In this document: in pieces, positions 36,833-53,480 of the stretch
Position numbering within the stretch: position 1 is the first letter of the stretch
Layout of the letters: every line of letters begins with the position of its first letter
Assembly: GCF_021732705.1 (NCBI RefSeq)
Contig: NZ_JAKFUM010000002.1
Coordinates: forward strand, 1-64,000
DNA: 64,000 bases
From: Nevskia sp.
Lineage (GTDB): Bacteria > Pseudomonadota > Gammaproteobacteria > Nevskiales > Nevskiaceae
Direction of reading: 5' to 3'
Translations under genes and position numbers: made by a program
Notes under the pieces: generated by a model
Seen by the model: only the letters and a program-made list of their open reading frames with translations
Told to the model about the DNA's origin: nothing
Database searches by the model: none

Positions 36833-38275
36833 TCAGCGTCCCTCGCCTGAATCGAGCTGCGGCAGCGGTGCGTCCTGCCAGCCACCGCCGAGCGCGCGGT
36901 AGATCGCGATGAGGCTGGTCGCCATTGCCGTGCGCGACTGGCTCTCCCGGTCTTCCGCTTCCAGCAGCACGCGTTCGGCATCCAGTACCTGCAGGAAATT
37001 GCTGATCCCGCCTTCGTAGCGCAGCCGCGACAATCGGGCGGCGGCGGCGCTCGCCTCCGCGGCATCGCGCAGATGGGCATAGCGGGCGCGGGCGCGGGTG
37101 TAGGCGATGAATGCGTTCTCGGTTTCCTCCAGCGCCCCGAGCACCGTTTGCTGATACCGGGCCAGCGCCCCTTCGGTGACGGCGCGCGAGCTGTCGATCC
37201 GGGCGAACACGCGGCCGAGATCGAATGCCGCCCAACGGATGCCGGGACCGAGCGTGTAGGTATCGGTGCCGGATGCGCCGAGCCCGGTGCCGGTCAGTGC
37301 CGCGTAGCCGATGCTGCCGCTGAAGGTCACGCGCGGAAACAGATCGCCCACGGCAACGCCGATCCGCGCGGTGGCGGCATGCAGCTCGCTTTCCGCCCGC
37401 TGGATGTCCGGGCGGCGGCGCAGCAGATCGGCCGGCGTTCCGATGGCGACGATTTCCGGCAACGCAGGCCAGGCTGGCGGCGACGCCAGCTCATCGATCA
37501 GGGCCTCCGGCAGCTGCCCCGTCAGCACCGCCAGCCGATGCTGCGCCTGCGCAACGCTGACTTCGAGCAGCGGAATCGTCGCCAGCGTCGTGGCCAGCTG
37601 CGCGCGCGCCTGACTGGTGTCGAGTTCCGTGCCGCGGCCGGCATCAAGCCGGACCTGGGTCACGTCCAGCGTCGTGCGCTGATTGCCGGCGTTGCGTCGG
37701 GCAACGCCCAGCTGATCCTGCGCGCCGCGCAGCTCGAAGTAGCTGCGGGCGACATTGGCCGCGAGCAGCACCTGGGCATTGCGCAGATTGGACTCCGCCG
37801 CTGCCAGGTCCGCCGTCGATGCCTCGACACTGCGCCGCACGCGGCCAAAGAAATCCAGTTCCCAGGTGACATCGAAGCCGGCATCGACGATTTCCGTGGT
37901 CCGCGGCGCCCCCGGCAGCTGCAGGTCTTCGCTCTGTTGCTGCTTGGTGTAACCACCGCCGACGGACGCGGTCGGCAGTTGGTCGAACCGCGTCAGCCGC
38001 CGCTGCGCCCGGGCGGCATTCAGGGTGGCCAGCGCCGCCTTCAGGTCATTGTTGTGGCGGAGCGCGGCATCGACCAGCCGGTCCAGCTGCGGATCGCCGA
38101 AGCGCGTCCAGAACGCCGCGATGTCCAGCGAGGCCGGGGACAGGCCCCGGTCGAGTCGGGCGAAGCCATCCGGCAGTGTCGATGGCGGGGACCGGAAATC
38201 CGGCCCCACCGCGCAGCCCGCGGAAAGGACCGACAGCACCAGCGCCACGCTCAGACGGATTTGACGGTCAGACAT
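36833..38275 (-). CDS. RND efflux outer-membrane channel lipoprotein (NodT/OprM family)
   Basis: This 480-residue TolC-like channel forms the outer-membrane exit duct of the pump encoded upstream. A lipoprotein signal ends in the lipobox LSAGCAVGPDF, so the N-terminal cysteine is acylated. The two repeats of the family are visible around LVDAALRHNNDLKAALATLNAARAQ and RPDIQRAESELHAATARIGVA. The start at MSDRQIRLSV was chosen for the signal; it overlaps the stop of the RND transporter gene by 8 bases. Its stop is immediately followed by the kinase start, so the pump and sensor are one transcription unit. Confidence 0.93.
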   Translation of the reverse strand: MSDRQIRLSVALVLSVLSAGCAVGPDFRSPPSTLPDGFARLDRGLSPASLDIAAFWTRFGDPQLDRLVDAALRHNNDLKAALATLNAARAQRRLTRFDQLPTASVGGGYTKQQQSEDLQLPGAPRTTEIVDAGFDVTWELDFFGRVRRSVEASTADLAAAESNLRNAQVLLAANVARSYFELRGAQDQLGVARRNAGNQRTTLDVTQVRLDAGRGTELDTSQARAQLATTLATIPLLEVSVAQAQHRLAVLTGQLPEALIDELASPPAWPALPEIVAIGTPADLLRRRPDIQRAESELHAATARIGVAVGDLFPRVTFSGSIGYAALTGTGLGASGTDTYTLGPGIRWAAFDLGRVFARIDSSRAVTEGALARYQQTVLGALEETENAFIAYTRARARYAHLRDAAEASAAAARLSRLRYEGGISNFLQVLDAERVLLEAEDRESQSRTAMATSLIAIYRALGGGWQDAPLPQLDSGEGR

Positions 38276-41200
38276 GGCCGTGCCCCGGCTGCGTGCCGTC
38301 ATGCCCCGGCGGCGCGACCTTCCGGGGCGCCACGGCGGAGCTGAAGGCGACGAAGAACACCGGCGTGAAGAACAGCCCGAACAACGTCACGCCGATCATG
38401 CCGCTGAACACCGCGACGCCCATCGCCTTCGAGACTTCCGCGCCGGCACCGGTGGCGCGCACCAGCGGCAGCACGCCCATGATGAAGGCGAAGCTGGTCA
38501 TCAGGATCGGCCGCAGACGCAACTTGCAGGCTTCGATCGCGGCCTCGATCCGGTCGCGGCCCTCGTCATGCAGCTGCTTGGCGAATTCGACGATCAGGAT
38601 CGCGTTCTTGCACGCCAAGCCCACCAGCACGACCAGCCCGACCTGGGTGAAGACATTGTTGTCGCCGCCTTGCAGCAGCACGCCGAGCACCGCGGCGAAG
38701 ATGCACATCGGCACGATCAGGATGACCGCCAGCGGCAGGGTCAGGCTTTCGTATTGCGCCGCAAGCACCAGAAACACGAACAGCACGCACAGCGGAAACA
38801 CGGTCAGCATGGTGCCGCCGGACGAAATCTGCTGGAACGCGAGGTCGGTCCACTCGAAGGTCATGCCGGACGGCAGGGTCTCGTCGAGGATGCGGCTGAT
38901 TTCGGCCTGCGCCTCTCCCGATGACACGCCCGGTGCGCCGCCGCCGTTGATGTCGGCCGAGCGATAGGCGTTGTAGCGCTGCACCACTTCCGGGCCGAAC
39001 GATTCGCGAATCGCCATCACCGACCCCAGCGGCACCATCTGGCCATCGCGCGTGCGGGTCTGCAGGGTGGCGATGTCCTCGACCTGCGAACGGAACGGCG
39101 CATCGGCCTGCACCACGACTCGGAAGGTCCTGCCAAAGCGATTGAAATCGTTGACGTAGAGCGAACCGAGAAACACCTGCAGGGTCTGGAAGACATCGGT
39201 CAGCGCGATGTTCTGTTCCTTGACCTTCACGCGATCGACATCGGCAAACAGCTGCGGCACGTTGATCTGGTAGTTCGAGAACATGCCGGCCAGCTTCGGG
39301 TTCTGCCAGGCCTTGCCGAGCGATTCGTTGACGGCCGCCGCCAGCGCTTCCGGCCCGCGATCGCTGCGATCCTCGACCTGCAGCTTGAAGCCGCCCAGCT
39401 GGCCAAGGCCGATCACCGGCGGCGGCGGAAACACGGCAACGAAGGCGTCCTGGATCGACCCGAACTGCTGGTTCAAGGCACCAGCGATGGCATTGCCGGA
39501 CAGCTCCGGCGTGGTCCGCTGCTCGAACGGCTTCAGCGGAATGAACATCACCGCCGCACTGGACGTGTTGACGAAGCCGTTGATCGACAGACCCGGAAAC
39601 TGCACCGCGGCCGACACGCCGGGATGGGCCAGCGCGATCTCGCCCATGCGTCGCGTGACGGCTTCGGTGCGGTCGAGCGAGGCCGCGGGCGGAAGCTGCG
39701 CGATGCCGATCAGGTACTGCTTGTCCTGCCCCGGGATGAAGCCGCCCGGAACCGCACTGAACGCGTAGTAGGTCGCACCGAGCAGCCCGGCGTAGATCAC
39801 GAATGCCAGCCCGCGACGATGCGTCAGGATGCAGACCCAGCGCCCGTAACCGGTGCTGGCAGCATCGAACGCGCGATTGAACGGGCGGAACAGCCAGCCG
39901 AGCGCGCGATCCAGCACGCGCGTCAGCAGGTCCTTCTGCGTGTGGTGGTCGCGCAACAGCAGGCCGGCGAGCGCCGGGGACAAGGTCAGCGAGTTGATCG
40001 CCGAAATGATCGTGGCGATGGCGATGGTCAGCGCGAACTGCCGGTAGAACTGCCCGGTCAGCCCGGGGACCAGCGCCACCGGCACGAACACCGCGCTGAG
40101 CACCAGCGCGATCGCGACGATCGGCCCGCTGACTTCCGACATCGCGATGCGCGTCGCCTCGCGCGGCGCATGCCCGAGCATGATGTTGCGCTCGACATTC
40201 TCGACCACGACGATGGCGTCATCGACGACGATGCCGATCGCCAGCACCATGCCGAACAGGCTCAGCGTATTGATCGAGAAGCCGACCATCAGCATCACGC
40301 CGAAGGTGCCGATGATCGAGACCGGCACCGCGATCAGCGGAATGATCGACGCGCGCCAGGTCTGCAGGAACAGGATCACCACCAGCACCACGAGCGCGAT
40401 CGCTTCGAGCAAGGTGTGGACGACCGACTGGATCGACTCCCGCACGAACACGGTCGGGTCGTAGACCACCGAGTAGTCCATGCCGGCCGGGAAGCTGGCC
40501 TTCAACTGGTCCATCGTCTGCCGCACCGAGGTCGACAGCGCCAGGGCATTGGAGCCCGGCGACTGGAAGATCGGCAACGCGACGGCCTGCTCGTTGTTCA
40601 GCAGGCTGCGCAGCGAGTACTGCGCCGCCCCGAGCTCGATCCGCGCCACATCCTTGATCGTCGTGACTTCGCCGTCACGCCCGGTCTTGATCACGATGTC
40701 GGCGAACTGGCTTTCGTCGAGCAGTCGGCCAGTGGCATTGATCGCGAGCTGGAACTGCGCTTCCGGCGCCGGCGGCGCGCCGATCTGCCCGGCCGCGACC
40801 TGCAGGTTCTGCTCGCGGATGGCGGCCACGACATCGCCCGCCGTCAGCGAGCGCGCCGCGAGCTTCTGCGGATCGAGCCAGATGCGCATGGAATAGTCGC
40901 CGGCGCCGAACACCTGGACATCGCCCATGCCGGGCAGGCGGCCCAGCTGGTCGCGAACGTTCAGCACCGCGTAGTTGCGCAGATACAACGAGTCGTAGCG
41001 GCCATCGGGAGAGCGCAGATGGACGACCATCGTCAGATCCGGCGAACTCTTGCGCGTGGTCACGCCGAGATTGCGAACTTCTTCCGGCAACCGCGGCAGC
41101 GCCTGCGCGACGCGGTTCTGCACCTGGACCTGTGCGCGGTCGATGTCGGTGCCGATGCGGAAGGTGATGGTCAGCGTGAGATTGCCGTCGACCGTTGCCG

Positions 41201-41447
41201 TCGATGACATGTACAGCATGTCCTCGACGCCGACGATCTCCTGTTCGAGCGGCGCGGCAACGGTGTCGGAAATCACCGATGGATTGGCGCCGGGGTACGC
41301 CGCGCGCACCACCACCGACGGCGGGACCACTTCCGGGTATTCGCTGATCGGCAGCTGGAAGATCGCGATGGCGCCGCCGATCGTGATGAAGATCGACAGC
41401 ACCGCGGCGAAGATCGGACGGTCGATGAAGAAGAAGGCGAATTTCAT
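38268..41447 (-). CDS. RND multidrug efflux transporter, HAE1/MexF-like
   Basis: This 1059-residue inner-membrane proton antiporter of the AcrB/MexF type expels hydrophobic compounds through the adaptor and channel encoded beside it. The N-terminus MKFAFFFIDRPIFAAVLSIFI (in outline) is typical. The proton-relay aspartate pair is in GIVVDDAIVVVENVER, and QVQVQNRVAQALPRLPEEV and FIPGQDKQYL are conserved porter-domain segments. Twelve transmembrane helices with two large periplasmic loops are apparent. It follows the adaptor gene after 6 bases. The MexF-type assignment is by overall similarity; substrates are not predictable. Confidence 0.95.
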   Translation of the reverse strand: MKFAFFFIDRPIFAAVLSIFITIGGAIAIFQLPISEYPEVVPPSVVVRAAYPGANPSVISDTVAAPLEQEIVGVEDMLYMSSTATVDGNLTLTITFRIGTDIDRAQVQVQNRVAQALPRLPEEVRNLGVTTRKSSPDLTMVVHLRSPDGRYDSLYLRNYAVLNVRDQLGRLPGMGDVQVFGAGDYSMRIWLDPQKLAARSLTAGDVVAAIREQNLQVAAGQIGAPPAPEAQFQLAINATGRLLDESQFADIVIKTGRDGEVTTIKDVARIELGAAQYSLRSLLNNEQAVALPIFQSPGSNALALSTSVRQTMDQLKASFPAGMDYSVVYDPTVFVRESIQSVVHTLLEAIALVVLVVILFLQTWRASIIPLIAVPVSIIGTFGVMLMVGFSINTLSLFGMVLAIGIVVDDAIVVVENVERNIMLGHAPREATRIAMSEVSGPIVAIALVLSAVFVPVALVPGLTGQFYRQFALTIAIATIISAINSLTLSPALAGLLLRDHHTQKDLLTRVLDRALGWLFRPFNRAFDAASTGYGRWVCILTHRRGLAFVIYAGLLGATYYAFSAVPGGFIPGQDKQYLIGIAQLPPAASLDRTEAVTRRMGEIALAHPGVSAAVQFPGLSINGFVNTSSAAVMFIPLKPFEQRTTPELSGNAIAGALNQQFGSIQDAFVAVFPPPPVIGLGQLGGFKLQVEDRSDRGPEALAAAVNESLGKAWQNPKLAGMFSNYQINVPQLFADVDRVKVKEQNIALTDVFQTLQVFLGSLYVNDFNRFGRTFRVVVQADAPFRSQVEDIATLQTRTRDGQMVPLGSVMAIRESFGPEVVQRYNAYRSADINGGGAPGVSSGEAQAEISRILDETLPSGMTFEWTDLAFQQISSGGTMLTVFPLCVLFVFLVLAAQYESLTLPLAVILIVPMCIFAAVLGVLLQGGDNNVFTQVGLVVLVGLACKNAILIVEFAKQLHDEGRDRIEAAIEACKLRLRPILMTSFAFIMGVLPLVRATGAGAEVSKAMGVAVFSGMIGVTLFGLFFTPVFFVAFSSAVAPRKVAPPGHDGTQPGHGHV

Positions 41448-41453
41448 CGTCGA

Positions 41454-42620
41454 TCAGCCTTTCGCCGCAGCGGTGACCGGCGTCTGCGATTCGACCATCG
41501 GCACCGGCTGTGGCGTCACCGGCGATCCGGGACGCACGCGCTGCAGGCCGTTGACGACGATCTTCTCGCCCGGCTTGAGTCCTTCCCGCACCACGCGCAG
41601 ACCATCGACGACCGGACCGATCTTCACCGGGCGGTACTCGGTGCTGCCGTCTTCCTTCACCACCAGCACGTACTTCACGTTCTGGTCCGTGCCGATGGCG
41701 CTGTCGCGGATCAATGTCGCGTCGTACTGGCCGCTGCCGAGCAGCTTGACCCGCGCGAACAGGCCCGGCGTGTACAGCCGCTTGTCGTTTCTGAACTGTC
41801 CGCGCGCGAGGATGGTGCCGGTCTGCGGATTGATGGCGTTGTCGACGAACACCATCACGCCTTCGTGCGGATGTCCTTCCTCACTGGCCAGCCCGACGAA
41901 CAAGGGATTGGGCGTGTCGCGCGAACTCTTTCGCTCGCCTCGCCGCGCGAGTTCGCCATAGCGCAGGAAGGCACGTTCGTCGGCATTGAACTCGACGTAG
42001 ATCGGATCGATCGAGACCACCGTCGTCAGCAGCGTCGTGCCGCCGGTCACCAGATTGCCGAGCGTCACCGCCGCGCGGCTGACCAGCCCGCTGATCGGGG
42101 CATGAACCTTGGTGAACTCCAGATTCAGTGCCGCCGACTGCACTGCCGCTTCGGCACCCTGCAGGCCGGCCTCCTGCTGCCGCACTTGGCTGACGCGCTG
42201 GTCGTATTCCTCGCGCGAGATCGCGCGAGCGCTGAGCAGGGTCTCGGCGCGCGCAAGATCCGCCTTCGCCAGCGCCAGCGTGCTGCGGCCTTTCGACAGT
42301 TCCGCCTGCGCCCGGTCGTACTCGGCCTGGTACGGGCGCGGATCGATCTCGAACAGCAGTTCGCCGGCCTTCACTTCCCGTCCCTGCGCGAACGCGACGC
42401 GCTGGATGTAACCCGACACGCGCGGTCGCACTTCGACCCGTTCCACCGCTTCGAAGCGGCCGGTGAACTCGTCGTAGTCGGTGATCTGGCGCGTCAGCAC
42501 TTCGGCAACGCTGACCGGCGGCGGACCCTGCTGGGGCTTGGGCGTCGGCTTGCCACAGCCGGCAAGGCTCGCTGCAGCGCAACTGACCACCACGGAAAGC
42601 ACAGCAAGCCGAGGGCGCAT
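41454..42620 (-). CDS. RND efflux periplasmic adaptor lipoprotein (MexE/AcrA-like)
   Basis: This 388-residue membrane-fusion protein links the RND pump to the outer-membrane channel. It has a lipoprotein signal ending in SLAGCGK. The N-terminal beta-barrel/lipoyl part includes EFTGRFEAVERVEVRPRVSGYIQRVAFAQGREVKAGELLFEIDP (shown here only as a landmark region from about residue 52). An alpha-hairpin (ARAETLLSARAISREEYDQR) and VHAPISGLVSR follow. It is the first gene of the apparent six-gene operon. No local TetR or LysR repressor is adjacent upstream, which supports control by the downstream two-component system. Confidence 0.93.
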   Translation of the reverse strand: MRPRLAVLSVVVSCAAASLAGCGKPTPKPQQGPPPVSVAEVLTRQITDYDEFTGRFEAVERVEVRPRVSGYIQRVAFAQGREVKAGELLFEIDPRPYQAEYDRAQAELSKGRSTLALAKADLARAETLLSARAISREEYDQRVSQVRQQEAGLQGAEAAVQSAALNLEFTKVHAPISGLVSRAAVTLGNLVTGGTTLLTTVVSIDPIYVEFNADERAFLRYGELARRGERKSSRDTPNPLFVGLASEEGHPHEGVMVFVDNAINPQTGTILARGQFRNDKRLYTPGLFARVKLLGSGQYDATLIRDSAIGTDQNVKYVLVVKEDGSTEYRPVKIGPVVDGLRVVREGLKPGEKIVVNGLQRVRPGSPVTPQPVPMVESQTPVTAAAKG

Positions 42621-43121: not shown

Positions 43122-44018
43122 CTAGCGCATCGTCGCGGGCACGCGGCGCTGGAAGCAGTCCACCGCGGCCCGGGCGGCCGGTCCGGCGAGTTCCGGGCGC
43201 ACCGTGACCAGATACAGCTCCATGTTGCGTTCGCCGCCGACCGCCAGCGGCAGCGGTCGCACGCTGCCGTCGCGCAGCGCCGTCGCCAGCAGGTGTTCCG
43301 GCAGCCAGGCATAGCCGAGGCCGGCCTTCACGGTGGCCAGCGAGGCTTCGATGCTGCTGACCGTGCAGCGCCGGCTGGCACCGAGCCAGCCCTCGTTGCG
43401 CGGCCGCTTCTGGCCCGAATCGCGGACCACGACCTGGACATGGCGCGCCAGATGCTCGGTGGTCAGCGGCACCTCGACCGCGAACAGCGGGTGGTCCGGT
43501 GCGGCGATGGCGATGAAGCGGATGTCCATCAGGAAGCTGCCGAGGAAGCCCGGCGGCACGCGGCTGGTGACGACGACATCGGCCGCCGCGTCCTCGATCG
43601 CCTGCTCGGCACCGGACAGCACGGCGTCCGATACCTGCATCTGCGTGCTCGGACACAGTTGCTGCAGCTCGGCCACGATCGACAGCAGCAGACCGCGCGG
43701 GAATGCGACATCGACCACCAGCCGCAGCTCCGGCTCCCAGCCCTGCTTGAGCTTGCGCGCGAGCTGTTCGAGCGTTTCCAGATCGCGCAGCAGTGGCCGG
43801 GCACGCTGCAGCAGCACCCGGCCGTGCTCGGTCAGCACCGCCTTGCGGCCCTCGACCACCAGCAGCGGCACGTCGAGCGCTTCCTGCAACCGCGCCAGTG
43901 CGTAGCTGACCGCCGGCTGGCTCTTGTGCAGCGCCGCGGCGGCCTGCGCGTAACCGCCGTGGTCGATCACCGCCGCCAGCACGGCCCATTGGTCCAGCGA
44001 GGTTTTCGGCGTCGTCAT
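43122..44018 (-). CDS. LysR-family transcriptional regulator
   Basis: The 298-residue protein has an N-terminal winged helix-turn-helix (LAAVIDHGGYAQAAAALHKSQPAVSYALARLQEALDVPLL, about residues 13-52). A two-lobed effector-binding domain follows, with a long linker helix ending near residue 90. It is transcribed divergently from the pirin-led operon across 104 bases that contain a perfect palindrome, the usual layout for a LysR activator and its target. The effector is unknown and may be a substrate or intermediate of the neighbouring pathway. Confidence 0.93.
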   Translation of the reverse strand: MTTPKTSLDQWAVLAAVIDHGGYAQAAAALHKSQPAVSYALARLQEALDVPLLVVEGRKAVLTEHGRVLLQRARPLLRDLETLEQLARKLKQGWEPELRLVVDVAFPRGLLLSIVAELQQLCPSTQMQVSDAVLSGAEQAIEDAAADVVVTSRVPPGFLGSFLMDIRFIAIAAPDHPLFAVEVPLTTEHLARHVQVVVRDSGQKRPRNEGWLGASRRCTVSSIEASLATVKAGLGYAWLPEHLLATALRDGSVRPLPLAVGGERNMELYLVTVRPELAGPAARAAVDCFQRRVPATMR

Positions 44019-44029
44019 TCCTCGAAAAT

Positions 44030-44044
44030 ATCAAGTTACTTGAT
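44030..44044. promoter_or_regulatory. Palindrome between LysR and pirin genes, probable LysR operator
   Basis: ATCAAGTTACTTGAT has perfect 7-base arms around a single T. It lies 11 bases upstream of the LysR start and 78 bases upstream of the pirin start. This is where LysR proteins bind for autoregulation and activation of the divergent gene. Confidence 0.6.
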
Positions 44045-44122: not shown

Positions 44123-44845
44123 ATGAATCAGATTCGACTCGCCAGCGACCGCGGCCACGCCCAGCACGGCTGGCTCGATTCGCATCACAGCTTTTCGTTC
44201 GGCAGCTACTTCGACCCCGAGCACGTCGAATACGGCCCGCTGCGGGTGATCAACGAGGACCGCGTGCAGCCCGGCAACGGCTTCGGCACCCATGGCCATC
44301 GCGACATGGAAATCATCAGCTACGTGCTGGCCGGCGAACTCGCCCATCAGGATTCGCTCGGCAACGGCTCGGTGATCCGCCCGGGCGACGTGCAGCGGAT
44401 GAGCGCCGGCACTGGCGTGCGCCACAGCGAGTTCAACCCGTCGCAGACCGATCCCGTCCACTTCCTGCAGATCTGGATCCAGCCGAGCCAGACCGGCATC
44501 GCGCCGAGCTACGAGGAAAAGCGCTTCGACGACGCCGACAAGCGCGGCCGCCTGCGCCTGATCGCCTCGCCGGATGCCGCCGACGGCTCGGTGCTGATCC
44601 ATCAGGACGCCCGGCTGTACGCCGGCCTGTTCGATGGCCGCGAGGCCGCGACCCTGATGCTCGCCCCCGGCCGCCGCGCCTATGTCCACGTGGCGCGCGG
44701 CGCGATCCGCGCCAACGGCGTGCGGCTTGCGGCCGGCGATGCGCTGAAGGTCGCTTCGCTCGACGAAGTCGGCCTGAGCGATGGCGAGCACGCCGAAGTG
44801 CTGGTCTTCGACCTGCCGGGCGAACAACCGACCCGCCGCAACTGA
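44123..44845 (+). CDS. Pirin family protein (YhhW/quercetinase-like)
   Basis: This 240-residue bicupin resembles E. coli YhhW, a metal-dependent quercetin 2,3-dioxygenase in vitro. The N-terminal cupin has the metal ligands in FGTHGHRDMEIISYVLAGELAHQD (two histidines) and in GVRHSEFNP (histidine and glutamate). The second cupin lacks obvious ligands, as usual. A GGAG Shine-Dalgarno precedes the ATG. It is the first gene of a co-directional run of seven genes, and its product may act as an oxygenase on an aromatic compound or as a redox-sensing co-regulator. Confidence 0.9.
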   Translation: MNQIRLASDRGHAQHGWLDSHHSFSFGSYFDPEHVEYGPLRVINEDRVQPGNGFGTHGHRDMEIISYVLAGELAHQDSLGNGSVIRPGDVQRMSAGTGVRHSEFNPSQTDPVHFLQIWIQPSQTGIAPSYEEKRFDDADKRGRLRLIASPDAADGSVLIHQDARLYAGLFDGREAATLMLAPGRRAYVHVARGAIRANGVRLAAGDALKVASLDEVGLSDGEHAEVLVFDLPGEQPTRRN

Positions 44846-44861
44846 TCCACCCGCCGCACCG

Positions 44862-44882
44862 CACCACCACCATCACCATCAC
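44862..44882. repeat. CAC/CAT triplet run in an untranslated gap
   Basis: Seven consecutive CAC or CAT triplets lie between the pirin stop and the next gene, immediately before its Shine-Dalgarno GGGAG. The run is not in an open frame. It gives an unstructured, G-free leader before the ribosome-binding site. Confidence 0.5.
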
Positions 44883-44898
44883 CGAAGGGAGAACCGCC

Positions 44899-45603
44899 AT
44901 GTCAAACCTCACCACCCTCGCCAAGCGCTCCGAGAAGGGCCTGCTGACGCCGGACAACTGCGTGCTCGCGATGATCGACCTGCAGCCGCAGATGCTGTTC
45001 GGCGTCTCCAGCCACGATCGTCAGACGATCATCAATAACAATGTCTTGCTGGCCAAGGCCGCGCAGGTCTTCGGCGTTCCGGTCGTGCTGTCGACCGTCG
45101 AGAGCAAGGCCTTCAGCGGCAACACCTGGCCGCAGCTGCTGGCCGCGCTGCCCGGCGTCGAGCCGATCGAGCGCAGCTCGATGAACTCCTGGGATGACGC
45201 CAACTTCGTCGCCGCGATCGAGAAGACCGGTCGCAAGAAGATCGTGCTGACCGGCCTGTGGACGGAAACCTGCGTCGCGCTGCCGACGATCCAGGCGATC
45301 CACGATGGCTACGAGGTCTACGTTGCCGAAGACTGCTGCGGCGACGTCAGCCTGCTGGCCCACGACAACGCGATGAAGCGCGTCTATCAGGCCGGTGCGA
45401 AGCCGGTGACGGCGCTGTCGACCCTGCTGGAGTGGCAGCGCGACTGGGCCCAGCGCGACACCTACGACGCGGTGATGGACATCGTGAAGACCCACAGCGG
45501 CGCGTATGGCGCCGGCGTCGAATACGCCTACACCATGGTTCATGGCGCGCCGCCGACCGTGCTCGCCCCGTACCGCGTGCCGGCCCCGGCCGCGCACGGC
45601 TGA
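44899..45603 (+). CDS. Isochorismatase-like cysteine hydrolase (YcaC-like)
   Basis: The 234-residue hydrolase has the catalytic aspartate in VLAMIDLQPQM near the N-terminus, a lysine in VESKAFSG, and the nucleophile cysteine in TGLWTETCVALPTIQ. This is the Asp-Lys-Cys triad of the isochorismatase-like superfamily, close to E. coli YcaC. Such enzymes cleave amides or related bonds. A GGGAG Shine-Dalgarno lies upstream. The gene is second in the pirin operon, and its substrate is probably shared with the amidohydrolase encoded two genes downstream. Confidence 0.9.
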   Translation: MSNLTTLAKRSEKGLLTPDNCVLAMIDLQPQMLFGVSSHDRQTIINNNVLLAKAAQVFGVPVVLSTVESKAFSGNTWPQLLAALPGVEPIERSSMNSWDDANFVAAIEKTGRKKIVLTGLWTETCVALPTIQAIHDGYEVYVAEDCCGDVSLLAHDNAMKRVYQAGAKPVTALSTLLEWQRDWAQRDTYDAVMDIVKTHSGAYGAGVEYAYTMVHGAPPTVLAPYRVPAPAAHG

Positions 45604-45683
45604 GCCGGACTGCCGCGGACGACCGGCGCGCAGCGTCGATCGTCCGCGTACCGACGCCGCCCCACGAATCTGGAGACGCCGCC

Positions 45684-45959
45684 ATGAAGATGTATCTGCT
45701 GTCGCTGGGCGCCGGCCTGCTGGTCGGTGCGATATACGCGCTGCTGAACGTGCGCTCGCCGGCCCCGCCGGTGATCGCGCTCGTCGGACTGATGGGCATC
45801 CTGCTCGGCGAGCAGGCGGTGCCGCTGGTCAAGCGGGTGCTGGTCGCGAAGGAGCCGGTCACCGTCGGCTGGGTCAAGGCGCAGTGCGGCGAGCATGTGT
45901 TCGGCGAACTGCCGGGCAAGGCCACCGTCAAGCCGCGCGCACAGGGAGACGCCGCATGA
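45684..45959 (+). CDS. XapX domain small membrane protein
   Basis: This 91-residue protein has two hydrophobic helices, LLSLGAGLLVGAIYALLNV and PPVIALVGLMGILLGEQAVP, which match the XapX (DUF1427) domain. A short soluble tail follows. A GGAG Shine-Dalgarno precedes the ATG. It overlaps the start of the amidohydrolase gene by four bases (ATGA). XapX proteins recur beside isochorismatase-like and pirin genes but have no known biochemical role. It is probably an inner-membrane subunit. Confidence 0.85.
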   Translation: MKMYLLSLGAGLLVGAIYALLNVRSPAPPVIALVGLMGILLGEQAVPLVKRVLVAKEPVTVGWVKAQCGEHVFGELPGKATVKPRAQGDAA

Positions 45960-47824
45960 ACGCCGTGCCCCCGGTCAAGGCCGAGATGATCGTCCGCAAC
46001 GCGCGGATCACCACGCTCGATCGCCAGAAGCCGCAGGCCACGGCGCTGGCGATCGCCGAGGGCCGCTTCGTGGCGGTCGGCACCGACGAGGAGGTGATGG
46101 CGCTGGCCGGTGCCGGCACGCAAGTGATCGATGCCGGCCAGCGGCGGCTGATCCCCGGGCTGATCGATTCGCACATCCACGTCATCCGCGGCGGCCTGAA
46201 CTACAACCTCGAGCTGCGCTGGGATGGCGTGCCGTCGCTCGCCGATGCGATGCGGATGCTGCGCGAGCAGGTGGCCCGCACGCCGGCGCCGCAGTGGATT
46301 CGCGTGGTCGGCGGCTTCAGCGAATGGCAGTTCGCCGAGCGCCGCCTGCCGACGCTCGACGAATTGAACGCCGCGGCACCGGACACGCCGGTGTTCATCC
46401 TGCATCTCTACGACCGCGCGCTGCTCAACGCCGCCGCGCTGCGCGCCGCCGGCTACACCCGCGACACGCCGAATCCGCCCGGCGGCTGGATCGTCAAGGA
46501 CCACCGCGGCGAACCGACCGGCCTGCTGCTCGCCGAACCGAACGCGCTGCTGCTGTATTCGGCGCTGGCCAAGGGACCGAAGCTGCCGGTGGAGTATCAG
46601 AAGAACTCGACGCGCCACTTCATGCGCGAACTGAACCGGCTCGGTGTCACCAGCGTCGTCGATGCCGGCGGCGGCTTCCAGAACTACCCGGACGACTATC
46701 AGGTCATCGAGGACCTGCACGCCGCCGGCGAACTGACGCTGCGCATCGCCTACAACCTGTTCACCCAGAAGCCGAAGGAAGAAGTCGCCGACTTCACGAA
46801 GTGGGCGACGATGGTCAAGCCGGGTCAGGGCGATGCGATGTACCGCCACAACGGTGCCGGCGAAATGCTGGTGTTCTCAGCGGCGGATTTCGAGGACTTC
46901 CGCCAGCCGCGCCCGGAACTGCCGCCCGGCATGGAACCCGACCTCGAGGCGGTGGTGCGAGTGCTGGTCGCCAACCGCTGGCCGTTCCGTCTCCATGCGA
47001 CCTACGACGAATCGATCGCCCGCGCACTGAGCGTGTTCGAGAAGGTCGACGCGGAGCTGCCGTTCGACGGCCTGCACTGGTTCTTCGATCACGCCGAAAC
47101 GGTCAGCGACCGCAACATCGCGCGCATCGCCCGGCTGGGCGGCGGCATCGCGATCCAGCACCGCATGTCCTACCAGGGCGAGTACTTCATCGAGCGCTAC
47201 GGCACGAAGGCCGTCGAACGCACGCCGCCGTACAAGCGGATGCTGGAGATGGGCGTTCACGTCGGCGCCGGCACCGATGCCACCCGCGTGGCCAGCTACG
47301 ACCCGTGGAATGCGCTGTGGTGGCTGACCACCGGCAAGACCGTCGGCGGCACGCGAATGTATCCGCCGGCCCACCTCGTCGACCGCGAGACGGCGCTCGG
47401 CTTGTACACGAAGGCCAACGCCTGGTTCTCGAACGAGGAAGGCGCCAAGGGCCAGATCAAGGTCGGCCAACTGGCCGATTTCGCGCTGCTGTCGGCCGAC
47501 TACTTCAGCGTGCCGGAAGACCAGATCCGCCAGCTGGTGTCGGTGCTGACCGTCGTCGGCGGCAAGCCGGTCTACGGCGACGACGCGTTCAAGCCGCTGG
47601 CACCGATCCTGCCGCCGGCGATGCCGGACTGGTCGCCGGTCAACTTCGGCAGCGGCTACTTCAAGCCCGATCGCGAAGCGCTGCACGCGAAGGCGCAGGC
47701 GAGCTGCGGCTGCGCGTCGAGCTGCCAGGTCCACGGCCATGCCCACGGCCGTGCCGACACCACCGCAACCGACGACCCGCGCGGCTTCTGGGGCGCGCTC
47801 GGCTGCTCGTGCTGGGCATTCTGA
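45956..47824 (+). CDS. YtcJ-type amidohydrolase with Cys/His-rich C-terminal tail
   Basis: This 622-residue metal-dependent hydrolase belongs to the amidohydrolase_3 (YtcJ) family. Zinc ligands are visible in LIPGLIDSHIHV (HxH), with further histidines in RLHATYDES, FFDHAE and AIQHRMS, and the catalytic aspartate in GAGTDATR. The last 40 residues are unusual for the family: SCGCASSCQVHGHAHGR and finally GCSCWAF hold six cysteines and three histidines and look like a metal-binding tail. The start is fixed by the ATGA overlap with the XapX gene; the frame is open upstream but only as a shadow. The substrate is unknown. Confidence 0.9.
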   Translation: MNAVPPVKAEMIVRNARITTLDRQKPQATALAIAEGRFVAVGTDEEVMALAGAGTQVIDAGQRRLIPGLIDSHIHVIRGGLNYNLELRWDGVPSLADAMRMLREQVARTPAPQWIRVVGGFSEWQFAERRLPTLDELNAAAPDTPVFILHLYDRALLNAAALRAAGYTRDTPNPPGGWIVKDHRGEPTGLLLAEPNALLLYSALAKGPKLPVEYQKNSTRHFMRELNRLGVTSVVDAGGGFQNYPDDYQVIEDLHAAGELTLRIAYNLFTQKPKEEVADFTKWATMVKPGQGDAMYRHNGAGEMLVFSAADFEDFRQPRPELPPGMEPDLEAVVRVLVANRWPFRLHATYDESIARALSVFEKVDAELPFDGLHWFFDHAETVSDRNIARIARLGGGIAIQHRMSYQGEYFIERYGTKAVERTPPYKRMLEMGVHVGAGTDATRVASYDPWNALWWLTTGKTVGGTRMYPPAHLVDRETALGLYTKANAWFSNEEGAKGQIKVGQLADFALLSADYFSVPEDQIRQLVSVLTVVGGKPVYGDDAFKPLAPILPPAMPDWSPVNFGSGYFKPDREALHAKAQASCGCASSCQVHGHAHGRADTTATDDPRGFWGALGCSCWAF

Positions 47825-47826
47825 TC

Positions 47827-48543
47827 ATGACCGACACCGCCAACGTACCGATGGCCATCGTCCGTCCGGGCACCGTCGCGCCGCTGCTGAGCTTCGTCGC
47901 CGGTTATGTCGATACCGTCGGCTTCATCGCGCTGTTCGGCCTGTTCACGGCCCACGTCACCGGCAACTTCGTGCTGATCGGCGCGTCGTTCGTGCACGGT
48001 GCCGATGGCGGCGTGATCGCCAAGCTGCTGGCGCTGCCGGTGTTCATCGTCGCCGTGGCGCTGACCACGGCCTTCGTGCGCCACCGCGAACGCCGGCAGC
48101 GGCGCGCGCTGACCCCGGTGCTGTGGGCGCAGATCGTGCTGCTGGGCGGCTTCGTGATCGCGGCCGTGCTGGCGGCCCCGATCAGCGCCGCCGACGCACC
48201 CGGCGCCGTGCTCGCCGGCCTGCTCGGTGTGGCCGCGATGGGCGTGCAGAACGCGGCCTCGCGGCTGGTGTTCACGACGCTGTCACCGACCACGGTGATG
48301 ACCGGCAACGTGACCCAGGTGGTGATCGACAGCGTCGACCTGCTGCGCGGTTCGACTGCCGACACCCGGGCGTCGACGCAAGCGCGGATTCGCAAGATGT
48401 GGCCGCCCGTGCTGGCGTTCGCGATCGGTGCCGCGGCCGGTGCGGTGCTGTACGCGCTGCTCGGCATCGCCTGCCTGCTGGTGCCGATGCTGGCGATAGC
48501 CGTCGTCTCGAGGATCGCCCAGCCTGCGGGCGCGACCGCATGA
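47827..48543 (+). CDS. DUF1275 (YoaK) family membrane protein
   Basis: The 238-residue protein has about six transmembrane helices and the family hallmarks LSFVAGYVDTVGFIALFGLFTAHVTGN near the N-terminus and GVQNAASRL...SPTTVMTGNVTQ in the second half. DUF1275 proteins are thought to be small-molecule transporters or permeases but none is well characterised. The ATG is two bases after the amidohydrolase stop. In this operon it could move the pathway's substrate across the inner membrane. Confidence 0.9.
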   Translation: MTDTANVPMAIVRPGTVAPLLSFVAGYVDTVGFIALFGLFTAHVTGNFVLIGASFVHGADGGVIAKLLALPVFIVAVALTTAFVRHRERRQRRALTPVLWAQIVLLGGFVIAAVLAAPISAADAPGAVLAGLLGVAAMGVQNAASRLVFTTLSPTTVMTGNVTQVVIDSVDLLRGSTADTRASTQARIRKMWPPVLAFAIGAAAGAVLYALLGIACLLVPMLAIAVVSRIAQPAGATA

Positions 48544-48938
48544 GCCGCGCCGTGTATGCGCTGGCTCGCGGCGGGCTGTGTCTGGCCTTTGTCTACAGCG
48601 GCCTGAGCAAGCTGCTCGACTTCCCGGCAGCGATCGCCGAGCAGCAGCACTTCGGCCTGTCGCCCCCGGCGCTGTTCGCCGCCATCACCATTGCCGTGCA
48701 GCTCGGCGGCTCGGCACTGGTGCTGTTCGGGCGTGGTCTCGGCGCGGCAGCGGGTGCGCTGATGCTGGCCGGTTTCACCGTGCTGGCCACGGTCATCGGG
48801 CATCCGTTCTGGACGATGACGGGCCTCGAGCGCTTCCACAACCTCAATGCCTTCCTCGAACATGCCGGGCTCGTCGGCGGCTTCACGATCGTGGCGCTGC
48901 TGGCGCGGTCGTCGCGCATCCGCGCCACGCACGGCTGA
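48540..48938 (+). CDS. DoxX family membrane protein
   Basis: The 132-residue protein has four hydrophobic helices and the DoxX pattern LCLAFVYSGLSKLLDFPAAIAEQ with VQLGGSALVLFG and NLNAFLEHAGLVGGF. DoxX proteins are quinone-interacting redox membrane subunits, and some take part in sulfur or thiol oxidation and oxidative stress defence. The start overlaps the DUF1275 stop by four bases. It may pass electrons from an oxygenation step of this operon to the quinone pool, which is inference. Confidence 0.88.
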   Translation: MSRAVYALARGGLCLAFVYSGLSKLLDFPAAIAEQQHFGLSPPALFAAITIAVQLGGSALVLFGRGLGAAAGALMLAGFTVLATVIGHPFWTMTGLERFHNLNAFLEHAGLVGGFTIVALLARSSRIRATHG

Positions 48939-48944
48939 ATCACG

Positions 48945-50249
48945 ATGCGGATACCGCTCGCCGTGCTCGCCGTTGCGCTGCCGGCCTGCGGGCTGGCGGG
49001 AGTTCCGGACTGTTCCATCGCGCTCGATGGCAACGATCCGCAGCGATACCTGTGCTTCGGCGGCGAAGTGCGGCTGCGCTACGAGCGCCGCGGCAACGAT
49101 GATTTCGGCACTGGCGACGGCGACTCCGACGCCGCATACCTGCTGCAGCGCGTGGCCCTGCAGGCGGATCTGCACGCCAGCGCGCACTGGCGCCTGTTCG
49201 CGCAGGCGCTGTCTGCCATTCAGTACGGTGATCGCGCCACGGCATCGCCGATCAATCAAAACCCGATCGATCTCCAGCAGGCGTTCGTCGACTACGGATT
49301 CGGCGACGTCGCTGCGAGCCGCGGCAGGCTGACCGCGCGGCTCGGCCGCTTCGGCCTGAACCTCGGCTCGGGCCGGCTGGTCGCGACCCGCGCCGCACCC
49401 AACGTGCCGTACAAGTTCGACGGCCTGCAGCTGATCGCCTCGCGGGGCCGAGAGCAACTGCAGGGCTTTCTGCTGCGGCCGTCGCAGGAATCGCAGCGCC
49501 AGCTGGACGGCCAGAATGATGGCCGGAGCCTCTGGGGCCTCTACGCGACCGCGCCGACCGGCTGGCCGCTGCCGGCGACGCTCGATCTGTACTACCTCGG
49601 CGCTCGCGATGACCAGCGCCGCTATGTCCGCGGCGAGGCCGACGAGCAGCGTCACAGCATCGGCGCACGGCTGTCCGGTGATCGAGACCCCTGGCGCTAC
49701 GACTGGGAAGCCGTCGTGCAAGTCGGCCGCTTCGGGGATCAGGAGATACGGGCCTGGACGCTCGCCAGCGATACCGGCTACCGATTTCGCGGGCATCCCT
49801 GGCAGCCGCAGATCAGCCTCAAGGCCGACTATGCCAGCGGCGATGCACGCGGCACCGGCAGGCGTCTCGGCAGTTTCAATCCGCTGTACTTCCGGGCGGC
49901 GTATTTCAACGATGCGGCGCTGATCCGTCCCACCAACATCATCGACCTGCATCCGTCCCTGCAACTGAAGCCGACCCCGGCGCTGACCGCCACCCTCGCC
50001 GTCGACCTGCTGTGGCGCGCCACGACGCGAGATGGCATCTACAGCCCGGCCGGCGACGTGCTGTTGCGACCGGCGACTGGCAGCAGCCGCTGGATCGGCA
50101 CCAGCAGCGAGGCGTCGCTCAGCGGAAGTGCGGGTCGGCGCTGGGTCTGGACGCTGTCCTACGTGCACCTGTTCGCCAGCGACGCCGTGCGCACGGCGGG
50201 AGGCCGCGATGTCGACTTCCTCGGCGGCTGGGCCACCTTCAGCTGGTGA
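48945..50249 (+). CDS. Alginate-export (AlgE-type) outer-membrane porin family protein
   Basis: This 434-residue beta-barrel has a signal peptide (MRIPLAVLAVALPACGLAG). Its repeated amphipathic strands are typical of the alginate_exp family (YLCFGGEVRLRYERRGNDDF near the start, RLGRFGLNLGSGRLVATR, DLYYLGARDDQRRY, and the C-terminal GGWATFSW ending in an aromatic residue). Outside alginate producers, members are generic anion or small-organic porins. It closes the pirin operon, 6 bases after the DoxX gene, and would give the pathway an outer-membrane entry. Confidence 0.88.
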   Translation: MRIPLAVLAVALPACGLAGVPDCSIALDGNDPQRYLCFGGEVRLRYERRGNDDFGTGDGDSDAAYLLQRVALQADLHASAHWRLFAQALSAIQYGDRATASPINQNPIDLQQAFVDYGFGDVAASRGRLTARLGRFGLNLGSGRLVATRAAPNVPYKFDGLQLIASRGREQLQGFLLRPSQESQRQLDGQNDGRSLWGLYATAPTGWPLPATLDLYYLGARDDQRRYVRGEADEQRHSIGARLSGDRDPWRYDWEAVVQVGRFGDQEIRAWTLASDTGYRFRGHPWQPQISLKADYASGDARGTGRRLGSFNPLYFRAAYFNDAALIRPTNIIDLHPSLQLKPTPALTATLAVDLLWRATTRDGIYSPAGDVLLRPATGSSRWIGTSSEASLSGSAGRRWVWTLSYVHLFASDAVRTAGGRDVDFLGGWATFSW

Positions 50250-50540
50250 GCCGCTCCCGACACATCGCCGCCCTGCACGTCCACGCCGATTAGCTTTGCC
50301 CTCAGCGCGGTCGGCACGGCGGCAACAGGCTTAAGGTAGGCGCTCGCTCTGGTTCTTCGCGGCCGGCCCGCGACGCATGACTATCCAGCCGACGCAAAGT
50401 TGACCAATCGGGAACACGACAAAATCTGATGGATCACGCTGCACCGTCCTAACGGTTAGATCCGTGACGGATGCTTTTTGACCGCCGGCAGTGGCTGATA
50501 CCCGTCAAATTTGAACTGACGCTGCCCGCAGGAAGTGACA

Positions 50541-50579
50541 GACAAAAACAAAGGGGCCTACATTTTCATGTAAGCCCCT
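50541..50579 (-). terminator. Intrinsic terminator of a tRNA unit (minus strand)
   Basis: Read on the minus strand, AGGGGCTTACAT pairs with ATGTAGGCCCCT around a GAAA tetraloop, followed by TTTGTTTTTG. One pair is G-U on this strand but a mismatch on the other, which fixes the direction. It stands 24 bases downstream of a tRNA CCA end, as expected for a tRNA terminator. Confidence 0.8.
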
Positions 50580-50602
50580 GCATTTTTTTCAGCTACTTTT
50601 TT

Positions 50603-50640
50603 TGGCTGGGGGACTAGGACTCGAACCTCGATAAACAGAG
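50603..50640 (-). pseudogene. tRNA 3'-end remnant, probable integration (att) site
   Basis: On the minus strand GAGGTTCGAGTCCTAGTCCC followed by CCAGCCA reads as a T-arm, acceptor 3' strand and encoded CCA end. The expected 5' acceptor strand (a G-rich partner), D-arm and anticodon arm are absent from the next 40 bases. One T-stem pair is broken. This is what remains when DNA integrates at a tRNA 3' end. The tRNA identity is unclear; the acceptor end is glutamine-like. Confidence 0.6.
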
Positions 50641-50762
50641 TTCGATGGTTGGCCATTATCGCAGCCGGTATTCGATCGTCCGCTTTGGTGCCAATACCTG
50701 ACGCTCGGGAGTAGCAGCTTTGCGGAAGCCAGTGGTCCCGGATTGAAGTTCGGCATGGGCTT

Positions 50763-53480
50763 TCAGTCCTTGCTCGTCGGCAAGTCGTTGATGGCGGCAG
50801 GTTCGGGCAGGGGCGCTCGCTGATCTTCCAGATGACGCCGTAGATAAGCTGCGGTTCGGCTGCTGTGCGACTGGGCAACTTGTCTCGGGGTTCCGGTCGC
50901 GACGATGGTACCGCCCGCCGCCCCTGCCCCCGGCCCGACATCGATGACCCAGTCGGCGCGCGCGATGACGCGCAGGTCGTGCTCGACGACGACGACGGTG
51001 TTGCCACGCTCGACCAGCGCGTCGAGCTGGGCGAACAGCCGGTCGGCGTCGACCGGATGCAGGCCGGTGGTGGGTTCGTCGAGCACGTAGAGCGCGTCGC
51101 CGCGCTGCGCACGCTGCAGCTCGGTGGCGAGCTTGATGCGCTGCGCTTCGCCGCCCGAGAACTCCATGGCCGGCTGCCCCAGGCGCAGGTAACCCAGTCC
51201 CAGTTCGTGCAGGATCGCCAGCGGCTTGCACACGACCGGCTCGTCGGCGAACACGACGAGCGCTTCGTCGACGGTCAGGCGCAGCACGTCGGCGATGGAG
51301 CGATCGCGCCATCGCACGGCCAGCGTCGCCTCGTTGTAGCGCGCGCCCTTGCAGGTAGGACAGGGCGCAAAGACGCTGGGCATGAACATCATCTCCACGC
51401 TCACGAAGCCCTCGCCCTCGCAGGTCGCGCAGCGACCCTTGCCGACATTGAACGAGAACCGCCCGGCGTCGAAGCGCCGATTGCGCGCCGCAGGGGTGGC
51501 CGCGAACAGGCGCCGCACTGGGTCGAGCAGGCCGGTATAAGTCGCCAGGTTCGACCGCGGAGTGCGGCCGATCGGTTTCTGGTCGACCACGACGAGCCGA
51601 CGGATCCGGTCGACATCGCCGTCCAGGCGTCCGCGCGTACGCTGCACCGCCGTCGCAGGTCCCTCGTCCGGCGCCTGGTCCGCCGGCACGTCCTCGTGAC
51701 CCAGATGATCGCGCACCAGGTCCACGAGCGCCCGGCTGATCAGGCTCGACTTGCCGGACCCGGACAGGCCGGTGACCACCGTGAAGACGCCGAGCGGCAA
51801 CTGCACGTCGACGTCGTGCAGGTTGTGGAGGGACACGCCGTGCATTCCGAGGTGATGCGTCGCGCCGCGCCGTCCGCCCGCCACGACTGCTTGCGGTTCG
51901 AACAGCACGCGCGCGGTCTGCGAATCGGCAACGGCCCGCAGTCCCGCGGGCGGCCCGCTGTACAGCACGCAGCCGCCGTGCTCGCCGGCACCGGGCCCGA
52001 CATCGACGATCCAGTCGGCGCGCCGCATCGTCTCAAGGTCGTGCTCCACCACGAAGACGGAGTTGCCCCGTTTCCGCAACTGCTGCAGTGCCTCGATGAG
52101 CGCCTCGCCGTCGGCGGGATGCAAGCCGGCGGAAGGCTCGTCGAGGACGTACACGACGCCGAACAGCTGCGACTGGATCTGCGTCGCCAGGCGCAGGCGC
52201 TGCAGTTCTCCGGCGGAAAGGCTGGGCGTGGCCCGGTCCATCGAGAGATACCCGAGTCCCAGGCGCTCGAGCACTGCAACGCGGTCGACGACATTGCGCG
52301 CGAGGCGCTGTGCCGCGACCCGCTTCTCCTCGGAAAGCGTGGGTGTGCGATTGGAATCGAAGGCTTCGGCGTGCGCGGCGTGCCCGCTGGCCGCGCGACG
52401 GTCGCGATCGCGGTGGGTGGCGGCGCGATCGACTCGTGAGCGACGACCGCGCGCGGCGTCCTCGAAGCGGCCCTCGGCCGCGGGCGCCAGCAGTGTTGCG
52501 ATCTCGTGCAGCGAGCGCTGGCTGAGGTCCCCGATGTCGAGGCCCGCGAACGTGACGGACAGCGCCTCGGGCTTGAGGCGTTTGCCTTCGCAGGATGCGC
52601 AGCGTGTGCCGCGCAGGAACCGGGCGACGCGCCGCTTCATCAGCGCGCTCTGCGTGGTCGCGAAGGTGTGGAGCACATAAGCCCGCGCGCCCGTGAAGGT
52701 TCCCTGGTAGCTGGGCGCGATTCCTCGGCGGCGCGCGTCGGCGACCGCGGCGAGCGTGAAACCTGCCCACACCGGTAGGGTCGGCTGCTCGTCGGTGTAC
52801 AGGATCCAGTCGCGCATCTTCTTCGGCAGGCGATGCCACGGCACCTCGATATCGACGCCCCGCGAGGTGAGGATGTCGCGCAGATTCCCACCATGCCACC
52901 CGGGCGGCCACGCGGCGACCGCGCCGTCCTTGATCGAGCGCGATGGGTCGGGGACCAACAGCGCTTCGGTGGTTTCATAGACATGCCCGAGGCCGTGGCA
53001 CGCCGGGCACGCGCCCTGGGGCGTGTTGGGCGAGAAGTCTTCCGCATACAGCATTGCTTGGTGCGGCGGATAGGTTCCGGCGCGCGAATAGAGCATGCGG
53101 ATCAGAGTCGACAGGGTCGTCACGCTGCCAACCGAGGAGCGCACGCTCGGCGTGCCGCGCTGCTGTTGGAGCGCAACCGCGGGCGGAAGCCCCGTGATCG
53201 AATCGACGTCCGGCACGCCGACCTGGTGGATCAGGCGTCGCGCGTAGGGCGATACCGAGTCGAAGTAGCGGCGCTGGGCCTCCGCGTAGATCGTCGAGAA
53301 GGCCAGCGAGGATTTTCCCGAACCCGAGACGCCGGAAAACACCACGAGCGCGTCCCGCGGGATGTCGACATCGACATCGCGCAGGTTGTGCTCGCGCGCG
53401 CCGCGTACGCGCACGAGACCGTCGGTGACGTCGTCGTCCTTCGGTCCCGCGGATATCGGCCCAGAATCCTCGCCGGACAT
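50763..53480 (-). CDS. UvrA-like ABC ATPase, class II (DrrC-like)
   Basis: The 905-residue protein has two UvrA-type ATPase halves. The first has Walker [10 protein letters not shown] near residue 50 and signature [13 protein letters not shown]; the second has GLSGSGKSS near residue 570 and signature [13 protein letters not shown], each with LDEP(S/T)xGLHP. Zinc-finger cysteines lie in [20 protein letters not shown] and CATCEGEGF...CPTCKGARY. It is shorter than canonical UvrA (about 940) and lacks the UvrB-binding region, as do class II UvrA proteins such as DrrC, which protect against DNA-bound drugs. It is last in a three-gene minus-strand run after the HbpS-like gene, 4 bases away. Confidence 0.9.

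Follow-up and report, generated by a model that had tools for sequence, protein, structure and literature searches.

What is a bacterium likely to do with an operon that encodes two hydrolases, an outer-membrane porin and a set of membrane proteins from largely uncharacterized families? The question is raised by positions 44,123 to 50,249 of a 64,000-nucleotide stretch of Nevskia sp. DNA (assembly GCF_021732705.1, contig NZ_JAKFUM010000002.1, positions 1 to 64,000; here called the window), where seven genes encode, in order, a pirin, a YcaC-like cysteine hydrolase, the small membrane protein XapX (DUF1427), a YtcJ-like amidohydrolase, the membrane protein YoaK (DUF1275), a DoxX-family protein and a porin, beside a divergent LysR-family gene. 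A preliminary description of this DNA, made from the sequence alone, had given coordinates and gene names that profile matches showed to be correct, and its view of the genes as a single operon-like unit, from which the LysR gene diverges, was borne out. It had offered two functions, a complete uptake and breakdown route or, as a second option, detoxification. We prefer the latter: the operon may be an inducible hydrolytic detoxification system with export, one version of a patchy module with swappable parts, an explanation that we favor over uptake and catabolism and hold tentatively, at less than even confidence.

The gene set is conserved well beyond this genome. A scan of GTDB with an alignment of 14 amidohydrolase sequences found at least 590 confirmed relatives, and the best 80 (66 to 78% identical) were retained; 72 of these 80 loci had at least 6 kb on each side, and 71 had full flanks for a control comparing the interval 0 to 4.5 kb from the amidohydrolase gene (near) with that from 4.5 to 9 kb (far). 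Locus counts throughout may include a species more than once: L020 and L073, for example, both come from Novosphingobium capsulatum, and L026 and L110 occupy the same position on contigs of equal length. Within 6 kb, the 72 loci held genes for a YcaC-like hydrolase (68), XapX (58), DoxX (53), an alpha/beta hydrolase (43), an MFS_3 carrier (38), a response regulator (33), a porin (32), YoaK (30), LysR (26), pirin (19) and AraC (18), and XapX, DoxX, porin and YoaK were invariably on the same strand as the amidohydrolase. Near and far counts in the 71 loci were 67 and 5 for the YcaC-like hydrolase, 57 and 1 for XapX, 52 and 0 for DoxX, 38 and 9 for the alpha/beta hydrolase, 37 and 1 for MFS_3, 30 and 2 for the porin and 29 and 3 for YoaK, compared with 13 and 5 for pirin, 23 and 13 for LysR, 32 and 13 for the response regulator and 14 and 7 for AraC. 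The core therefore consists of the YcaC-like hydrolase, XapX, the amidohydrolase and DoxX plus a carrier, with the pirin and the regulator exchangeable; the conserved association implied by the preliminary grouping stands for this core, whereas pirin and LysR are accessory.

Closer to home, 9 of the 18 genomes of the window's genus carried the amidohydrolase (E values up to 1e-100); XapX was found in those 9, always within 170 bases of the amidohydrolase gene, and in one further genome without an amidohydrolase match, which is 84% complete, while 8 genomes had neither. Among 299 genomes drawn at random from the phylum, 33 contained DUF1427 matches (E values up to 0.001) and 37 the amidohydrolase, and 19 of the 26 strong DUF1427 matches (E values up to 5.9e-17) lay within 3 kb of an amidohydrolase match. 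Plasmid copies were present in 385 of 72,556 PLSDB records, including those of rhizobia, Pantoea and a Priestia plasmid; many carriers among the plasmid records are rhizobia, Pantoea or Azospirillum, and the cluster occurs across many soil and plant bacteria. In the literature searched, combinations of the component families yielded no description that we recognized as this cluster.

The amidohydrolase carries the most distinctive feature of the module. Its residues H73, H75, H347, H379, H402, D441 and E303 were invariant in all 53 aligned sequences, and we take the conserved His and Asp to be metal ligands. The Pfam match stops at residue 540 of 622, and outside it, at the extreme C-terminus, lies a near-invariant Cys/His tail newly described here, of the form CxC-x3-C-x2-HxHxH ... 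F(W/F)GxxGCxC(W/F)A. The main pattern, C-x2-HxHxH...F(W/F)GxxGCxC, was present in 110 of 119 loci (the window copy and 109 others); of the nine exceptions, three are tail-less (L114, L132 and L134), L082 stops early within its fetched contig, and five have partial tails. In the 53-sequence alignment, C590, H593, F611, C617 and C619 were invariant, and C586, H595 and H597 were found in 49, 52 and 50 sequences, respectively. A 40-column tail profile gave 42 strong matches in the 299 genomes (E values up to 2.2e-8), 41 of them the C-terminus of this amidohydrolase, as well as seven weaker ones (E values of 0.001 to 0.005), including the amidohydrolase of G130; the tail was absent from 3 of the 45 amidohydrolases in the sample. 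The remaining strong match is a 66-residue frame (L138; G249:C7:638776-638895) with none of the other module genes in the fetched 15 kb; a free-standing tail peptide was rejected on this ground, and the frame probably remains from an amidohydrolase since lost. Selenocysteine or read-through at the one TGA of L013, whose frame ends ahead of the tail, was likewise rejected, L013/L114 (51% identical) being tail-less. An AlphaFold model of the window amidohydrolase (pLDDT 83.6, pTM 0.87) had a good barrel, with residues 574 to 622 disordered and a tail pLDDT under 50, and a search of the PDB with the tail profile returned only a designed protein (E value, 0.0036) and a ribosomal protein (E value, 1.9). 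Such strong conservation without predicted structure would suit a tail that depends on a ligand, a partner or a modification.

A Tat-like pattern (twin arginines, then a hydrophobic run and later a Met; our own pattern rather than a trained predictor) was found upstream of 53 of the 119 amidohydrolases, including those of the congeners L106, L107 and L109. From this distribution, the amidohydrolase is probably periplasmic in many relatives and cytoplasmic in the window's organism. Relatives with the signal (for example, L106, L098 and L023) have a Met directly after it, at the position where signal-less copies start, and two start sites, giving exported and nonexported forms, are possible in them.

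In the YcaC-like hydrolase, D27, R92 and C125 were conserved at 93% or more in 103 neighbors, D27 and C125 presumably being the catalytic Asp and Cys. It shares its isochorismatase-like fold family with YcaC of Escherichia coli and Pseudomonas (PDB 1yac and 4wgf, matched at 95 and 91 bits). The window protein scored 117.9 bits against the NCBIfam YcaC equivalog (NF041461), for which the cut-off is 310, and therefore represents a separate subfamily. E. coli ycaC is described, in a passage of one report, as altered in a ycaN deletion mutant (PMC9068703). Two further isochorismatase-family genes lie no more than about 3 kb from each other on one contig (G000:C4:99617-100177 and 102042-102617).

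In XapX, the core VRSPAPP...GEQ is conserved across 78 neighbors. The domain of this protein, DUF1427, was described in 2005 as restricted to plant-associated Proteobacteria (PMC554113). It is the same domain here, and many of the carriers that we found are indeed rhizobia, Pantoea and Azospirillum; DUF1427 is nevertheless not restricted to plant associates, because 5 of the best 80 loci are in the ammonia-oxidizer genera Nitrosomonas, Nitrosospira and Nitrosovibrio and others are in Nevskiaceae and a myxobacterium. DoxX conserves K24, E34, W91, E107 and H108 in 72 proteins, and no alignment column had Cys in more than 30% of them; on this ground we rejected the idea that DoxX is a thiol oxidase of the MauE/VKOR type with the tail as its target. 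The pirin is closest to the quercetinase YhhW, its best PDB match (1tq5; 243 bits). By its structure matches, the frequent alpha/beta hydrolase falls with haloperoxidases, arylesterases and gamma-lactamases. In the congeners L106 to L109 a haloperoxidase-like gene of this type follows the porin; none is present at window positions 50249 to 50700, and the best match in the window's genome is 42% identical and on a different contig. A 296-residue protein encoded between the amidohydrolase and DoxX genes (L020:9860-10750) is near in 15 of 71 loci and has no Pfam or NCBIfam match.

DUF1275 seems to fill the carrier slot in place of MFS_3, as if the two were interchangeable: of 88 loci, 31 had YoaK, 42 had MFS_3, 3 had both and 12 had neither (Fisher P = 1e-10). 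The module MFS_3 proteins scored highest with a proton antiporter model and EntS, followed by Mef, Tap and Tet(V), all below cut-off, and both carriers are read here as putative exporters. The preliminary suggestion that DUF1275 is an inner-membrane carrier is thus partly supported, by this alternation and by its relation to the MFS repeat unit as stated in a passage on TCDB (PMC7778945); it would be a putative half-size MFS carrier. According to PMC12316277, which cites Wang et al. 2020, some DUF1275 genes (TCDB 9.B.143) are located near YtcJ-like amidohydrolases, and transporting peptides or amido compounds is among the roles suggested for them. The pairing with a YtcJ-like amidohydrolase and the proposed carrier role are the same there as here; the passages concerned omit the XapX, YcaC-like hydrolase, DoxX, porin, tail and MFS_3 alternation of this module.

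Our favored explanation combines these parts as follows. The target would be a small toxic molecule with an amide, ester, lactam or similar bond, sensed by LysR in this copy and by AraC or two-component systems in others. The YcaC-like cysteine hydrolase and the YtcJ-like metal hydrolase would open its bonds, with a haloperoxidase/arylesterase-type serine hydrolase as a third enzyme in many relatives, and where a Tat-like signal is present the amidohydrolase would probably work folded in the periplasm. The compound or its product would leave the cytoplasm through the carrier, which is YoaK/DUF1275 in the window and an EntS-like MFS_3 exporter in other copies, and the AlgE-type porin would be the exit through the outer membrane; DoxX, XapX and the accessory pirin might serve the membrane or redox side. 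In its favor we count the conserved and closely spaced core, the patchy distribution with numerous plasmid copies, the likeness of MFS_3 to exporters, the relation of DUF1275 to the MFS and its published placement near YtcJ-like amidohydrolases, the alternation of the carriers, the structure matches of the alpha/beta hydrolase, the occurrence of redox-family genes (near in 21 of 71 loci, far in 6) and the five ammonia-oxidizer loci.

Several observations weigh against this explanation. The best-80 set leans towards complete modules; in the random sample, a strong DUF1427 match was within 3 kb of 15 of 45 amidohydrolase matches, and 20 of the other 30 loci, when fetched, held a YcaC-like gene in 15 cases, pirin in 4, DoxX in 1 and XapX in 1. 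The full set is therefore one frequent form and not the rule, the hydrolase pair being the most stable part. The Fisher test for the alternation of carriers in the 88 loci ignores ancestry, and a tree-based independent-pairs sign test was not significant (median P = 0.25; range, 0.03 to 1); on average, YoaK and MFS_3 changed in opposite ways in 3.2 pairs and in the same way in 0.4, and supported branches of a tree built by a quick method required at least 8 YoaK label changes and at least 10 for MFS_3. The Tat-like signal is absent from the window copy and from L108. Direct quinone-type partners are rare (FMN reductase in 0 of 71 loci, ABM in 1 of 71). The ammonia-oxidizer loci are not decisive, since ammonia-releasing amide hydrolysis would suit these organisms too.

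A catabolic route, in which an amide- or ring-containing compound would enter through the porin and carrier, be opened by the hydrolases and supply metabolism with its products, would account for the grouping of a porin and a carrier with hydrolases of three types, and the published guess at a peptide or amido-compound transporter agrees with it. We nevertheless consider it unlikely: no downstream catabolic family recurs among the neighborhood clusters looked at, the ring-cleaving mhqO-like dioxygenase, among the families searched for, is near in just 6 of 71 loci, the MFS_3 proteins resemble the exporters EntS, Mef and Tap (below the cut-offs of those models), and the module also occurs in genera of ammonia oxidizers, which are autotrophs. 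No more probable, in our view, is a unit against quinone or electrophile stress, in which LysR would be the sensor and DoxX, pirin and the hydrolases would remove quinone-like electrophiles. In Bacillus this is the task of the Mhq regulon, with the dioxygenase MhqO, the hydrolase MhqD and the DoxX protein MhqP, and the likeness lies in a DoxX with hydrolases and, in the 6 loci just mentioned, an mhqO-like gene; no MarR-type MhqR was seen here, and the core hydrolases, XapX, the carrier and the porin are outside the Mhq regulon. At least one of six redox families (including pirin, mhqO-like, ABM, AhpD and mhqD-like) is near in 21 of 71 loci compared with 6 far, and the Priestia copy is adjoined by an FMN reductase and a monooxygenase-like gene, with spxA in the same 18-kb stretch. 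Such partners are a minority all the same, the pirin that the preliminary description counted as one of two redox parts is accessory, DoxX lacks a conserved Cys, and the core hydrolases would be left unexplained.

The tail invites two further readings. With at least four Cys and three His nearly invariant, disorder predicted in the ligand-free model and Tat-like export in many relatives, it could bind or deliver a metal, for instance zinc or copper, in an operon that answers metal stress; the recurring neighbors identified include no metal transporter, chaperone or sensor family, being hydrolases and exporters of organic compounds instead, and we rank this reading as the least probable of all. 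Only slightly better placed, and still distinctly improbable, is a new type of metal-dependent hydrolase whose tail would fold on a second metal or a covalent modification, at the envelope in Tat-exported relatives, and act as a built-in cofactor, a metal reserve or a docking piece for the DoxX/XapX membrane pair, with DUF1427 and DUF1275 as parts of an envelope hydrolase-export machine. Inducible detoxification with export remains the explanation that we favor.

The layout of the operon is given in the table; all domain assignments of the operon and LysR genes are profile matches above curated cut-offs.

Features of the operon and its regulator (window coordinates; scores from profile matches)
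Feature	Position	Strand	Evidence
LysR-family regulator	43122..44018	-	Pfam HTH_1 60.7 bits, LysR_substrate 97 bits; divergent from operon
15-base inverted repeat ATCAAGTTACTTGAT, T-N11-A type, candidate LysR site	44030..44044	.	Perfect repeat, LysR-pirin spacer
Pirin/YhhW-type quercetinase-like cupin protein, accessory	44123..44845	+	Pirin 121.3 bits, Pirin_C_2 (quercetinase C-terminal) 92.5 bits
YcaC-like isochorismatase-fold cysteine hydrolase	44899..45603	+	Isochorismatase (PF00857) 107 bits
XapX/DUF1427 small membrane protein	45684..45959	+	PF07235 123.5 bits, XapX TIGR03510 71.7 bits
Amidohydro_3 (YtcJ-like) metal-dependent amidohydrolase	45956..47824	+	PF07969 432.9 bits (cut-off 29.7), residues 56-540
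C-terminal Cys/His tail of amidohydrolase, coding part, residues 584-622	47705..47821	+	Conserved pattern
DUF1275/YoaK membrane protein, proposed carrier	47827..48543	+	PF06912 124.4 bits
DoxX-family membrane protein	48540..48938	+	PF07681 50.8 bits, MauE 35.2 bits (cut-off 27)
Alginate_exp (AlgE-type) outer-membrane porin	48945..50249	+	PF13372 265.8 bits

The pirin and YcaC-like genes are 53 bases apart, and 80 bases separate the latter from xapX. The tight packing noted earlier for the last five genes holds, since their junctions, from XapX-amidohydrolase to DoxX-porin, measure only -4, 2, -4 and 6 bases. The divergent LysR-pirin pair is retained in loci L106 to L111, and when intergenic regions of 7 relatives were aligned, 4 contained an exact copy of ATCAA-N5-TTGAT, the candidate LysR site; other copies of the module have LysR or AraC regulators nearby, or kinases, which in the five scanned carry MASE4, Reg_prop or Ser/Thr-kinase-GAF parts. 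A scan for sigma-70-like promoters found none ahead of the operon and one promoter-like site elsewhere (0.7 expected), together with three terminator-like sites (3.5 expected). MexEF-OprN-like resistance-nodulation-division (RND) efflux genes (36833-42620, minus strand) adjoin the LysR gene; the adaptor (41454-42620) scored 456 bits against the MexE model (cut-off, 714), and the other two genes were named by position and size. A link between these genes and the operon was rejected, as they are not retained at other loci, where a single weak match (28%, L037) was found. Beyond the operon lies a gene for a large two-ATPase ABC protein resembling UvrA relatives (50763-53480, minus strand), named from its sequence without a profile run. 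Anti-phage defense was also rejected; PADLOC profiles matched no family for eight proteins at 1e-5.

Our results place DUF1427/XapX and DUF1275/YoaK, two widespread domains without an assigned function, in a recurring and testable unit with defined partners, and the conserved Cys/His tail on a hydrolase family poses a clear biochemical question. Should the envelope-machine reading be true, DUF1427 and DUF1275 would for the first time have a defined function; if detoxification with export is true, the module would be a mobile trait by which soil and plant bacteria resist a toxic compound.

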